Shown: positions 3,294 through 16,209 of the stretch, piece by piece | Layout: each line of letters begins with the position of its first letter | Numbering within the stretch: the first letter of the stretch is position 1 | IMG/VR virus record: IMGVR_UViG_3300006923_000006 | Span: 62,001 to 126,000 of that record | Length of the DNA: 64,000 nucleotides | Reading direction: 5' to 3' (one strand) | Source: a virus | Notes under the pieces: generated by a model | The model's input: the letters and a program-made list of their open reading frames with translations, nothing else | Told to the model about the DNA's origin: nothing | Database searches by the model: none | Made by a program: the position numbers and the translations under genes

Positions 3294-3356
3294 GCGGTTG
3301 TGGTATTATGGGACATTGCCGATGTTCAGACCGGAGTTCGATTCTCCGCAGCCGCA
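3294..3356 (+). tRNA. Shortened tRNA-Gly-like gene (anticodon GCC)
   Basis: Acceptor GCGGTTG/CAGCCGC, T arm CGGAG-TTCGATT-CTCCG and an anticodon arm GGACA-TTGCCGA-TGTTC all pair, but only 10 nt separate the acceptor from the anticodon stem, so there is no room for a D arm. The total is 63 nt. The stretch TGGTATTATGG looks like the start of a normal D arm, which suggests a deletion of about 10 nt. It may be a D-armless tRNA or a tRNA pseudogene. Confidence 0.45.
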
Positions 3357-9409: not shown

Positions 9410-12400
9410 ATGCACACTTATGAAGAGGCGTATGAGACAAGTAAAGAATATTTTGGTGGTAATGAGTTAGCAGCTAAGGTTTTTGTAGATAAATATTCGT
9501 TAAAAAATGAGATAGGTGAAATTCTTGAAAAAACACCTACAAGTATGCATAAAAGATTGGCTAAAGAATTTGCTCGAATAGAAAAAAAGAAATTCAAAAC
9601 ACCATTAACCAAAGAAGAAATATTTGACTTGTTTGATAATTTTAAATATATTGTTCCTCAAGGTAGTCCAATGAGTGGGATTGGCAATAACTATAACTAT
9701 CAATCATTAGGTAATTGTTTTACTTTAGGCAATCATCCTGTAGATTCATATGGCGGTATTTTATATGCTGACCAAATGTTAGTACAGTTAAGTAAAAGGC
9801 GATGCGGTGTTGGTGCTCATATAAACAATATTAGACCAAAAGGTTTGCCAACAAAAAATGCAGCTATTACTACAGATGGTATTTCTGTATTTATGGAGCG
9901 ATTCTCTAACAGTATTCGCGAAGTCGCACAATCAGGCAGAAGAGGAGCACTTCTTTTAGGATTGTCTGCATACCATCCAGAGATAGAAACTTTTATCAAT
10001 ATCAAAAAAGATAAGACAAAAGTTACAGGTGCTAATCTATCTGTGCTATTACCTAATAATTTTATACAAGCGGTGGAACAAGACGAAGAATACGAACAAA
10101 AATGGCCAATTGATTCTGAGACTCCGTTAGTTTCTCAAATGGTTAACGCTAAAAAAATATGGAATCAAATCATTAATGCTGCTTGGGAATCTGCCGAACC
10201 AGGACTATTGTTTATTGACAACATACAAAAATATAGCACTTCACACTGTTATGGTAAGGTAGATGAAAGGTTTTTAGACCTAATCCCAAATCCGTGTTTT
10301 CCAGCAAGCGAATATTTACTAACAAATAAAGGATATGTATCTTTTGGACAATTGTTTAAACAAGGTAATAATAATAAGATATTAGCAGACGCTCGTATAT
10401 CTTATAATAATGTTGGAGAAGAACGTGTTGAAAATTGGAAAATAAACTCCCAAAAACACGGAACAATTCAAAGAAATGCTAGTCATGTATTTTTAACACA
10501 AAAAAAAGCTGACACAATAGAAATAGAAACCAAAAAAGGATTTAAACTGTCGTGTACGCCAGACCATCATATTGCAACAACTACAGGTATGATTGAAGCA
10601 AGTCAATTAATTAAAAATGATGATATACTAATATCGATTCCTAATCAAAATACAAAATCAATTAAAAACAGATTACCAAAAACAGAAAAAGAAATATTGT
10701 CATTTCTAATAGGTTTGATTTCTGGAGACGGATGTATTGATAATAGTAAAAAAAATATACATCTTGATTTTTGGGAAGATGATAGATATCGTATGACAGA
10801 CATAGTTGTAAAGCTTATTAAAAAACTTCACAATAAATTAGGAGACAGATATGGATTGTCTAACAGAAAATTAAAAATATCTAGAATTTATGATGTACAA
10901 AAAGAAAGAAAAATAAGAATTTCATCTTCTTGGTTGTTTAATGTACTTTCAGAATATGGTTTTAATAAACAAACAAAACATATGGTTCCTGATTTTATAT
11001 TAAATAATTGTGTAGGTAATATAGGCAAATATTATTTGTCTGGTATGATGTATACAGATGGAACTATTGGAGGAAGTGTAAGTTCTGGATATTCGGTAAG
11101 ATTAAATCAAAGTAATAAAAAAATGCTACATAAAATACAAATGATTTTTCATGCTAATGGTATTTTAATGGGTTTATACAAAAGAAGAGACGAACAAAAC
11201 CGTATGATGCCGGACGGCAAAGGCGGATATAAATCATATAAAACAAAAACAAATTATGAATTAATTAGTATATGTGGTAGTATAGTTAAATATATGTCAG
11301 AAATAGGGTTTTTTGGAGACAAAAACAAAGAGTCTAAATTTAATAAAAATCATAATTATAGAATCAAATTAAATTACACAGATAAAATTAAAAAAATAAC
11401 ATTTAAAAATCAAGAACCAGTATTTTGCATTAAAGAAGATATTGGAAGGAATATTATTGTTAATGGTATTTCTGCAAGAAGATGCGGCGAAGTACCAATG
11501 GGATTTGATGCATGTAGGCTAATGTTATTAAATCTGTTTTCTTATGTAGATAAACCTTTTACTAAATCCGCTAAGTTTGATTACAAAAAATTTGATGAAC
11601 ATTGTATTACAGCACAAAGACTAATGGATGACATGGTAGATTTAGAATTAGAAAAAATGGATAAGATAATCAAAAAGATTAAATCTGACCCAGAACCTGA
11701 TAATATTAAACAATTAGAACTTGAAATGTGGGAGTCATATAAAGAAACTGCCGAACTAGGACGTAGAACTGGACTTGGTATTACTGGACTTGGCGATTGT
11801 TTAGCTGCTTTAGGAATTCAATACGGTTCTAAAAAATCTATTAGAAAAACAGAAGAAATATACAAGAGAATGGCTATATCTTCTATGAAATCGTCATGTC
11901 TACTAGCTAAAGAACTTGGTGCTTTTCCTTTGTTTAATCCCACCGTTGAACAAGATAACATTTTCATGAATCGTATTTTTGATGCGTCTGAAGAAGTTAA
12001 AATTTTACACCAACAGTATGGCAGACGTAATATTTCCTTGACAACCACCGCTCCTGCCGGTAGTGTTAGTATTATGACCCAAACGACTTCTGGTATTGAA
12101 CCTGCTTTTATGTTAGAATATACCCGAAGAAGAAAAATAAATAACGATTCTGAAAAATGTGATTTCGTGGATGCTTCTGGCGATAAGTGGGAACATAACA
12201 AAGTAGTCCATCATCACTTGCAGACATGGCGGGATTTAAGTCAAAAAGACAATATTGAGGATTCTCCGTATCATAAGGCTACTTCAAACGACATTGACTG
12301 GAAAGCTAGTGTAGAATTACAGTCTGTTGCTCAAAAGTGGATTACTCACTCTATTAGTAAAACATGTAATATTCCTAGCGATTCCACAAAAGAACTAGTT

Positions 12401-13006
12401 GCGGAAATTTACTTGGCTGCTGCTAAAAGTGGATGTAAAGGCTTTACTGTATATCGCGATGGTTGTAGAGACGGTGTTTTAGTTGCTGACACAGAAGTAA
12501 AGTTACCACCCAATAGGCCAAAAGAACTAGATTGTGATGTTTACCACACTACAGTTCGCGGACAAGAATATTTTGTGTTAGTTGGATTGTACAAAAACAA
12601 ACCATACGAAGTATTCGCTGGTAAGAATGGTATTATTCACAAAAAAGTTAAGACTGGCAAAATTACTAGGAAACGTAAAGATTTTTACAAAGCGGTGTTT
12701 GATGACGAAAATGAACTATCTCCAATTACGGCATGTATGGAAGAAATGGAAGAATGTATTTCCAGACTTACGTCTAGTCTTTTACGTAGTGGTTCAGATA
12801 TGAACTTTATTGTAACACAACTAGAAAAGGTTGGTGAAAGACAAACAGAAATGCATACTTTTGCTAAGTGTCTTGCTCGCGTACTCAAAAAGTATATTCC
12901 AGACGGGACAGAAACTGGAGATAAATGCCCAGAATGTGGTGATAAACTTATTAGGGAAAGTGGTTGCCAATCGTGTAAATCATGCCCTTATGCTAAATGT
13001 GGTTAA
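9410..13006 (+). CDS. nrdJ: Class II (adenosylcobalamin-type) ribonucleotide reductase with intein
   Basis: A 1198-residue precursor. Without the intein it would be about 802 residues, normal for NrdJ. Recognised parts are 'PQGSPMSGIGN' and 'SLGNC103F' (disulfide-forming Cys), the finger-loop 'NP|CGEVPMG' with the radical cysteine, and the NrdJ-type 'SGCKGFTVYRDGCRDGVLV' followed by a C-terminal cysteine-rich tail ('CPECGDKL...CQSCKSCPYAKCG') that recycles the active-site disulfide. It reduces ribonucleotides to deoxyribonucleotides and needs host vitamin B12. An intein of 396 residues (296-691) separates NP from CGE. The start has GAGG 8 nt upstream. A structured leader with a terminator precedes it, suggesting regulation. 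The next gene follows after 11 nt. Confidence 0.92.
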   Translation: MHTYEEAYETSKEYFGGNELAAKVFVDKYSLKNEIGEILEKTPTSMHKRLAKEFARIEKKKFKTPLTKEEIFDLFDNFKYIVPQGSPMSGIGNNYNYQSLGNCFTLGNHPVDSYGGILYADQMLVQLSKRRCGVGAHINNIRPKGLPTKNAAITTDGISVFMERFSNSIREVAQSGRRGALLLGLSAYHPEIETFINIKKDKTKVTGANLSVLLPNNFIQAVEQDEEYEQKWPIDSETPLVSQMVNAKKIWNQIINAAWESAEPGLLFIDNIQKYSTSHCYGKVDERFLDLIPNPCFPASEYLLTNKGYVSFGQLFKQGNNNKILADARISYNNVGEERVENWKINSQKHGTIQRNASHVFLTQKKADTIEIETKKGFKLSCTPDHHIATTTGMIEASQLIKNDDILISIPNQNTKSIKNRLPKTEKEILSFLIGLISGDGCIDNSKKNIHLDFWEDDRYRMTDIVVKLIKKLHNKLGDRYGLSNRKLKISRIYDVQKERKIRISSSWLFNVLSEYGFNKQTKHMVPDFILNNCVGNIGKYYLSGMMYTDGTIGGSVSSGYSVRLNQSNKKMLHKIQMIFHANGILMGLYKRRDEQNRMMPDGKGGYKSYKTKTNYELISICGSIVKYMSEIGFFGDKNKESKFNKNHNYRIKLNYTDKIKKITFKNQEPVFCIKEDIGRNIIVNGISARRCGEVPMGFDACRLMLLNLFSYVDKPFTKSAKFDYKKFDEHCITAQRLMDDMVDLELEKMDKIIKKIKSDPEPDNIKQLELEMWESYKETAELGRRTGLGITGLGDCLAALGIQYGSKKSIRKTEEIYKRMAISSMKSSCLLAKELGAFPLFNPTVEQDNIFMNRIFDASEEVKILHQQYGRRNISLTTTAPAGSVSIMTQTTSGIEPAFMLEYTRRRKINNDSEKCDFVDASGDKWEHNKVVHHHLQTWRDLSQKDNIEDSPYHKATSNDIDWKASVELQSVAQKWITHSISKTCNIPSDSTKELVAEIYLAAAKSGCKGFTVYRDGCRDGVLVADTEVKLPPNRPKELDCDVYHTTVRGQEYFVLVGLYKNKPYEVFAGKNGIIHKKVKTGKITRKRKDFYKAVFDDENELSPITACMEEMEECISRLTSSLLRSGSDMNFIVTQLEKVGERQTEMHTFAKCLARVLKKYIPDGTETGDKCPECGDKLIRESGCQSCKSCPYAKCG
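10295..11482 (+). mobile_element. Intein with LAGLIDADG homing endonuclease, inserted at the RNR radical cysteine
   Basis: The 396-residue insert begins with Cys ('CFPASEYLLTNKG'), carries the block-B signature 'TPDHHIA', two LAGLIDADG motifs ('LIGLISGDGCI' near residue 432 and 'SGMMYTDGTI' near 544 of the precursor) and a C-terminal 'NIIVNGISA' block. The insertion splits NP from CGE, so the +1 residue is the catalytic cysteine. The last two residues before it are Arg-Arg (AGA AGA) where inteins normally end in His-Asn. Codon use in the insert is even richer in A/T than in the flanks. Splicing competence is therefore uncertain. Confidence 0.9.
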
Positions 13007-15004: not shown

Positions 15005-15052
15005 CGTACTTATTTTAAAGATTCCTTCATGTGTTTGAGGGAGTCTTTTTTT
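14994..15052 (+). promoter_or_regulatory. Attenuator-like leader with mutually exclusive hairpins
   Basis: GAAGGAA (14994-15000) is perfectly complementary to TTCCTTC (15022-15028), while that same TTCCTTC, as part of 15019-15028, pairs over 10 positions with 15037-15046. The second hairpin is followed by T residues 15046-15052 and is a good terminator. The two structures cannot coexist, the hallmark of transcription attenuation. It lies 20 nt before the next start codon. Confidence 0.65.
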
Positions 15053-15071: not shown

Positions 15072-15320
15072 ATGATTGAAGCAGGATTTGTATTATTTAT
15101 GGAAAATCATTTTGGTCGTAAACCCAATATGTCAGAGGGTAAAGACCGAGATTTATACTCAGCGTGGAAACACGGCAGAGACCACGAAGACGTAGTGTTC
15201 GAGAAAGTTACAGAAACTGATGACAAATGGGCAAAATCCAAAAGCCTTGGAGCATACGAAGTGGACATGGACAGCATGTTAAAAGACACCAAAAATTTAC
15301 GAAGTGATTTTCAAAAATAA
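15072..15320 (+). CDS. Hypothetical protein (82 aa)
   Basis: A small acidic/charged protein with a clear GGAG ribosome-binding site, immediately downstream of the attenuator-like leader, so its expression is probably the one controlled. 'GFVLFMENHFGRKP' at the start could be a short helix; no family is recognised. It is followed after 17 nt by a gene that begins at ATT. Confidence 0.5.
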   Translation: MIEAGFVLFMENHFGRKPNMSEGKDRDLYSAWKHGRDHEDVVFEKVTETDDKWAKSKSLGAYEVDMDSMLKDTKNLRSDFQK

Positions 15321-15337
15321 CTTAAAGGAAAAATAAC

Positions 15338-15766
15338 ATTAAGACAATAATAGCTGGCGACCGTAATTTAAAAGAATACCAACACATAGTGGATGCTGTT
15401 AATATTTCCAAGTTTGAGATTACGGAAATAGTATCTGGAAAAGCCAGAGGGGCAGACGAACTTGGTGAACAGTGGGCCACAGAGAATGGTGTGCCAATTA
15501 AACCGTTTGCTGCTAACTGGAATAATCTTACTCAGCCAGGAGCAGTAATTAAAATCAACAAGTGGGATAAAAAATACAACGCAAATGCCGGATTTTATCG
15601 AAACCAAAAAATGGCTGAGTATGCTGATGCTTTGATTGCAATTCAAGTTGATGGTGATACTCCTGGTACTGGTGATATGATTAAAAGAGCTAAAGCAGAA
15701 GGATTGTCGGTCTTTGTGTATGAAGGGCCAGAAGAAAAAGACAAAGTATTTGCTTTTAGTTTTTAA
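15338..15766 (+). CDS. DUF2493/SLOG-family protein starting at an ATT codon
   Basis: The product (142 aa) matches the DUF2493 (YpsA-related, SLOG) pattern: a start 'KTIIAGDRNL', then 'IVSGKARGADELGEQWA', 'YRNQKMAEYADALIA' and 'GTGDMIKRAKAEGLSVFVY'. Such proteins bind nucleotides or ADP-ribose derivatives. The family start 'MKxIIAGxR' aligns with ATT AAG ACA at 15338. AAAGGA lies 8 nt upstream of this ATT, and an in-frame stop at 15323 leaves no ATG, GTG or TTG between. The first methionine-like alternative would cut off the first strand and nucleotide loop. Confidence 0.72.
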   Translation: MKTIIAGDRNLKEYQHIVDAVNISKFEITEIVSGKARGADELGEQWATENGVPIKPFAANWNNLTQPGAVIKINKWDKKYNANAGFYRNQKMAEYADALIAIQVDGDTPGTGDMIKRAKAEGLSVFVYEGPEEKDKVFAFSF

Positions 15767-15777
15767 GGAGAATAACA

Positions 15778-16209
15778 ATTCCTACATACATTTTAGAATG
15801 CGGTGAATGCAATATATACTGGGAAAGAAAAATGCCCATGGCAGATACGGAAAAAATTGGCAAATACATTCCGTGTCCTAAATGTAAAAAGAAAAAGTCA
15901 GTTAGTCAAGACTTTTCTGAATCTGGCCAACATATCCAAGTCTCTAGGGACGCTTCTACAGTTGGTGAAATCGCGGAAAGAAATACCAAAAACATGGGCA
16001 CATACGAACTAGAAGATAAACGTAAAGCTTATTTTGACAGTAAGAAGAAAGCCAAACGAACCATGTTAACGGAAAATGGTATAATTAAACCGGGAGACCC
16101 TTTACCAGAAGACAGTAAACCATGGTATGGAAAAATGGACAAGGAAACTAAAAAACAAATTGAAACAAATCCAGCCAGAGCGGAAAAATATATTATGGAG
16201 GGGAAATAA
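15778..16209 (+). CDS. FmdB-like zinc-ribbon protein starting at an ATT codon
   Basis: The product (143 aa) begins 'xPTYILECGEC', the classic FmdB/zinc-ribbon opening MPTY-x-x-x-C-x-x-C, and completes the zinc site with 'CPKC' near residue 35. The codon in place of the initiator is ATT at 15778, with AAGGAG 7 nt upstream. The first ATG (15832) would lose the first two zinc ligands. The remainder is Lys/Glu-rich and probably extended. Its stop overlaps the next ATG (TAATG). Function is unknown; FmdB-type domains occur in regulators and small phage proteins. Confidence 0.72.
   Translation: MPTYILECGECNIYWERKMPMADTEKIGKYIPCPKCKKKKSVSQDFSESGQHIQVSRDASTVGEIAERNTKNMGTYELEDKRKAYFDSKKKAKRTMLTENGIIKPGDPLPEDSKPWYGKMDKETKKQIETNPARAEKYIMEGK

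Follow-up and report, generated by a model that had tools for sequence, protein, structure and literature searches.

Two neighbouring genes of an uncultured phage, encoding a YspA-like SLOG (DUF2493) protein and a zinc-ribbon protein, almost certainly start at ATT codons, as judged from their sequences. Both are probably translated from AUU, with a strong Shine-Dalgarno (SD) sequence and the weak start codon acting together as a cis-acting throttle. The pattern reaches beyond this pair, which a preliminary description had singled out: to judge by sequence patterns, the zinc-ribbon family is recurrently ATT/ATC-started in diverse phages. The analysed stretch of 64,000 nt (the window, to which plain positions refer) corresponds to G000:62001-126000 of a 163,651-bp virus record.

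The two start sites and their gene products

The genes are located in a cassette (14.2-19.5 kb) composed, in order, of phoH, a terminator-like hairpin, an 82-aa ORF, the SLOG gene, the zinc-ribbon gene, several small ORFs and a RecA-like gene; the cassette features given below are all on the plus strand. The hairpin (15017-15048, 3' of phoH), recognized by consensus match only, has a 13-pair stem and a TTTTATT tail, and likely separates off the downstream operon. The ATG-started 82-aa ORF (15072-15320), for which Pfam-type profile and PHROG comparison found no family, ends 17 nt before the first ATT. The SLOG gene (15338-15766; 142 aa) starts at ATT (15338-15340), which aligns with M1 of its relatives and follows the SD sequence AAAGGA (15324-15329) with an 8 nt spacer, in the context CTTAAAGGAAAAATAAC ATT AAG ACA ATA ATA GCT GGC GAC CGT. 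The zinc-ribbon gene (15778-16209; 143 aa) starts at ATT (15778-15780), 11 nt downstream of the SLOG stop codon and 7 nt after the SD sequence TAAGGAG (15764-15770), which overlaps that stop codon, in the context TTTTAAGGAGAATAACA ATT CCT ACA TAC ATT TTA GAA TGC GGT GAA TGC. This ATT aligns with ATG in three relatives (L005-L007) and with ATT in a fourth (L320). In-frame stops lie 4 codons (SLOG) and 6 codons (zinc ribbon) upstream. Both genes thus have AUU as first codon, a well-spaced SD and no usable AUG, GUG or UUG upstream. The preliminary description was correct in placing ATT 7-8 nt after a good SD at the family N-terminus of both proteins, and in stating that no canonical start precedes their essential residues.

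The first canonical in-frame codons are GTG 15389 (codon 18) in the SLOG gene and ATG 15832 (codon 19) in the zinc-ribbon gene, and a gene caller would annotate these as the starts of shorter proteins. It is very unlikely that they are the true starts, since neither has a good SD, and initiation there would remove the IIAGDR strand/loop of the SLOG protein or the first CxxC of the zinc ribbon; moreover, the codons that would be skipped are conserved, with synonymous changes relative to relatives. The predicted mRNA structure is unusually weak at the SLOG start (z +1.8) and ordinary at the zinc-ribbon start (z -0.3), so a structured regulatory RNA element is not evident at either site.

Both ATTs are also present in two further IMG/VR contigs, 3300010151_003753 and 3300025141_000575, which represent the same virus and overlap this region (99.97-100% identical, with few SNPs elsewhere). 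This agreement concerns assembled contigs rather than raw reads, from samples that are perhaps not fully independent, but the three assemblies are concordant and unrelated contigs show the same codon change at the corresponding position of the family, and the probability that errors in sequencing or assembly created both start codons is practically negligible.

The SLOG protein matches PF10686 (YspA/YAcAr; E 2.8e-11, 43.5 bits vs. a cut-off of 28.2), contains the N-terminal IIAGxR motif, and matches PHROG 289 over residues 2-136. The second protein, with a Zn_ribbon_8/FmdB-like N-terminus, fits the pattern MPxYxxxCxxC followed by a second CPxC ([M/I]PTY...C8xxC11...C33PKC36), and its residues 2-40 match PF09723 below the curated cut-off (E 0.024; 15.1 vs. 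34.4 bits). Syntenic homologues exceed this cut-off (41.5 bits in L056 and 42.5 bits in L320), and the profile was matched at least weakly by all nine zinc-ribbon proteins scanned, five of them above the cut-off. Motif and homology together mark the second protein as Zn_ribbon_8-like but divergent. Roles are assigned at family level only: a putative SLOG nucleotide-binding type and a putative zinc-ribbon regulator type.

Non-AUG starts in relatives and across phages

The preliminary description had pointed to the start codons of relatives as informative; these are mostly ATG at the same position, with ATT recurring in three contigs (L056 and L076 for SLOG, L320 for the zinc ribbon). In cultivated phages, M1 of the SLOG homologues falls exactly at the ATT position, and the start is ATG in seven of the eight readable records and TTG in the other; two further records, in which M1 gave no alignment, were left out. 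Of the viral contigs, L005 (phoH, SLOG, zinc ribbon) has ATG at both starts, while the zinc ribbons of L006, with phoH directly upstream, and L007 also start at ATG. Contig L056 is syntenic with the cassette region (14 homologous genes); its SLOG gene (58% identity) starts at ATT and its zinc-ribbon gene at ATG. A GTG two codons upstream of the L056 ATT is unlikely to serve as the start because it is just 1 nt from GGAG. Codons 5-9 of the window and L056 SLOG genes differ synonymously at conserved residues (ATA/ATC, GCT/GCC, GGC/GGG, CGT/AGA), and such changes right after the ATT fit translation of these codons. The SLOG gene of L076, another phage contig, begins at ATT and is the only gene shared with the cassette, and in the syntenic L320 (phoH, then zinc ribbon) the zinc ribbon starts at ATT. 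The zinc-ribbon ATT of the window is absent from its closest syntenic relatives (L056, L005, L006 and L007), all of which have ATG. Either gene of the cassette is thus ATT-started in several lineages. A search of genome contigs for SLOG relatives yielded one weak relative and nothing more.

IMG/VR was scanned with patterns composed of an SD (exact AGGA/GGAG), ATH and the family N-terminus, and matches internal to long ORFs or with an ATG just upstream were discarded. For the SLOG motif KxIIAG, the complete ATH scan gave 44 matches, including three ATT lineages; the ATG scan gave at least 54 genes (47 clusters), so the true ATT share among SLOG genes is at most ~6%. The corresponding scan with the zinc-ribbon motif PxYxxxCxxC gave at least 26 ATT, at least 4 ATC and at least 3 ATA distinct genes. 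Removal of genes with a reachable ATG or GTG left, among the matches listed, at least ~28 ATT/ATC genes in diverse phages and ~0-1 with ATA; the listed ATT/ATC genes have strong, well-spaced SDs and mostly a stop 3-14 codons upstream with no canonical start. An ATN scan that followed the same file order, and was taken as an unbiased sample, contained ~109 ATG and 3-4 ATT zinc-ribbon starts (3-4/~113), a rate of ~3% that is based on 3-4 sampled events and on exact patterns with an AGGA/GGAG SD. A background set of 4,982 further ORFs from these contigs yielded 746 canonical starts with a preceding SD, as well as 2 distinct ATT candidates; ATT was no commoner than codons unable to start, and hence not enriched. 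The zinc-ribbon ATT rate differs from this background with a Fisher p of 0.003-0.03, the range reflecting how a single doubtful case on either side is counted. The same pattern in 395 Bacillota genomes matched ~72 zinc ribbons with ATG but none convincingly with ATT; against a rate of 3%, this is suggestive without reaching significance. No ATT was found among the FmdB-like homologues read in cultivated phages; all start at ATG (Serratia phage phiMAM1, Klebsiella phage vB_KpnM-20, Salmonella phage S16, Caudovirales ct2KA10 and Streptomyces phage Sham).

Non-AUG starts are retained between several syntenic orthologs: (i) L256 (ATC) and L267 (ATT), with five collinear genes at 41-57% identity, where both starts are non-AUG and the third base differs; (ii) L199 and L294, both ATT, with three more homologous genes nearby (33-45% identity); and (iii) L200 and L240, both ATT, with 85% nucleotide identity over 7.5 kb. 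On an approximate tree of 129 zinc ribbons, 23 switches between AUG and non-AUG are needed, pointing to many origins of the non-AUG starts; the number is a guide only, given the short alignment and the undersampling of ATG genes.

These data bear on the possibility that both ATTs are recent G-to-T mutations which weaken or silence the genes, reflecting decay rather than regulation. ATG in most relatives, and a zinc-ribbon ATT not common to L056 or L005, would agree with it. However, the two reading frames are uninterrupted for 142-143 codons and retain the family residues, L056 has the SLOG ATT as well in spite of the divergence of the two genes, and syntenic orthologs retain their non-AUG starts. 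In the zinc-ribbon family, among the matches listed, ATT and ATC together clearly outnumber ATA even though a transition would give ATA, and this bias argues against decay or error. We consider decay unlikely.

Recurrence and conservation of the weak start suggest that phages may keep zinc-ribbon proteins scarce in this way. We tentatively propose, with slightly more doubt than confidence, that phage zinc-ribbon genes (SLOG genes less so) form an undescribed class selected for AUU/AUC starts, in which ~3% of the genes use such starts, conserved across syntenic orthologs, as an IF3-sensitive throttle hidden by gene callers. No report of a zinc-ribbon ATT/ATC start pattern was found in a literature search that mainly covered freely accessible papers. 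That one family should arrive at ATT/ATC repeatedly and retain it in orthologs points to the start codon itself as the target of selection, and opens the regulatory role of near-cognate starts to direct tests. In practice, a set of small phage regulators is missed or shortened by gene callers that accept only ATG, GTG and TTG.

Two further observations were made during the survey. Two different phage contigs, L401 and L322, each carry a small cysteine-motif ORF (..DIRGxxT..CPCG and ..DARGxPT..CPNCGG.., respectively) with an apparent ATC start after a good SD, which may represent a second zinc-binding family that uses non-AUG codons. In Ackermannviridae (e.g. L433, L435 and L436; 361 records matched), an FmdB-like zinc-ribbon gene, left unannotated in some records such as that of phiMAM1, lies directly upstream of the gene for a gp33-type late transcription coactivator, a position that hints at a transcription-related role.

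Initiation at the ATT codons

The preliminary description had offered deliberate low-level translation or a phage change in initiation as explanations; the former is still the best reading, while the latter found no support as a phage-wide phenomenon. When the starts of all ~168 genes in the 163,651-bp record were surveyed, no third convincing non-canonical start emerged, the others appearing to be ATG, GTG or TTG, and no IF3 gene was found. The one CAT tRNA (960-1029) has a paired acceptor end (G1-C72), unlike bacterial initiator tRNA. With ordinary starts elsewhere, no phage IF3 and no initiator-like tRNA, phage-wide rewiring is unlikely, and it was rejected as an explanation of the two ATT genes.

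An ATC candidate at G000:33943 was also rejected, since it belongs to a frameshifted metallophosphoesterase with an ATG upstream. This metallophosphoesterase-like gene (L012; G000:33920-34521, outside the window) has a one-base frameshift after the SDSHF motif, with the ATG-started N-terminus in one frame and GHRNI... in the next; sequencing error, decay and frameshifting are all possible causes. Within the window, Rfam identifies a tRNA at 3294-3356 (41.7 bits) that is absent from the ARAGORN list and overlaps a short ORF, and a ribonucleotide reductase ORF (9410-13006) has, by eye, an apparent intein-like insertion between its NPC and RRCGEVPMG segments.

For the two ATT genes, a strong, well-spaced SD beside the stop codon of the preceding gene would recruit the 30S subunit, where fMet-tRNA would mispair partly with AUU and initiate inefficiently. 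Initiation would probably be limited by IF3 proofreading, as at known AUU starts, leaving the SLOG and zinc-ribbon proteins scarce relative to the products of surrounding genes; the nearby upstream stops could let re-initiation contribute. The combination of strong SD and AUU is read as a throttle because known AUU starts give about one-tenth of the AUG yield, can still produce functional protein, and are of the non-canonical type against which IF3 discriminates. We infer low yield, a benefit of scarcity and, from infC and general work on IF3, IF3 dependence.

Re-initiation could also be the main route: ribosomes that finish the upstream gene would remain bound to the mRNA and tolerate AUU, in which case the genes would simply be coupled and the identity of the start codon would matter little. 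The short stop-to-start gaps and the overlap of the second SD with a stop codon are compatible with this, as is the reported non-canonical initiation downstream of stops upon loss of ribosome recycling (PMC2268962), but re-initiation in that model system also required initiator tRNA and was reduced by IF3 (PMC2268962). Among the matches listed, moreover, zinc-ribbon starts at ATT/ATC/ATA have a stop close upstream no more often (22/33) than those at ATG (76/101), and special translational coupling of the ATT starts was rejected on this ground. We regard re-initiation as a serious but rather improbable alternative to the cis-acting throttle.

Comparison with known AUU starts

AUU starts have been reported for just a handful of bacterial genes, and Escherichia coli pcnB is one such case. 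In phage T4, gene 26 contains an internal AUU start that yields a shorter product; the window genes share AUU initiation in a phage with this example, but each of them is a whole gene with no start other than AUU. Reconstructions in bacteria indicate one AUG-to-AUU switch per 61,358 AUG starts (PMC5622118), compared with ATT at ~3% of the phage zinc-ribbon starts sampled here.

IF3 discriminates against non-canonical starts (PMC2268962), and E. coli infC, with its AUU start, has a role in IF3-sensitive initiation (Sacerdot, 1996, as cited in PMC2268962). The phage genes resemble infC in their AUU start, but infC belongs to the host and is autogenously controlled; as the phage genes do not encode IF3, an infC-type feedback loop is not expected. 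To present infC as the known case, as the preliminary description did, is too narrow, since AUU starts have been shown experimentally in two other bacteria. In Yersinia pestis, an AUU with an RBS starts the functional RcsD-Hpt protein, and an AUG swap raises its function (PMC10191623); the phage genes likewise combine AUU with an RBS, although the Y. pestis start is internal to a frameshifted bacterial gene. In Staphylococcus aureus, cvfC1 has AUU and a strong SD, encodes a small zinc-finger-like protein conserved among staphylococci, and gives ~10% of the AUG reporter yield (PMC13009471). Although cvfC1 is located on a bacterial chromosome, unlike the phage genes, its AUU and strong SD on a small zinc-finger-like protein are, by description, matched in the phage zinc ribbon.
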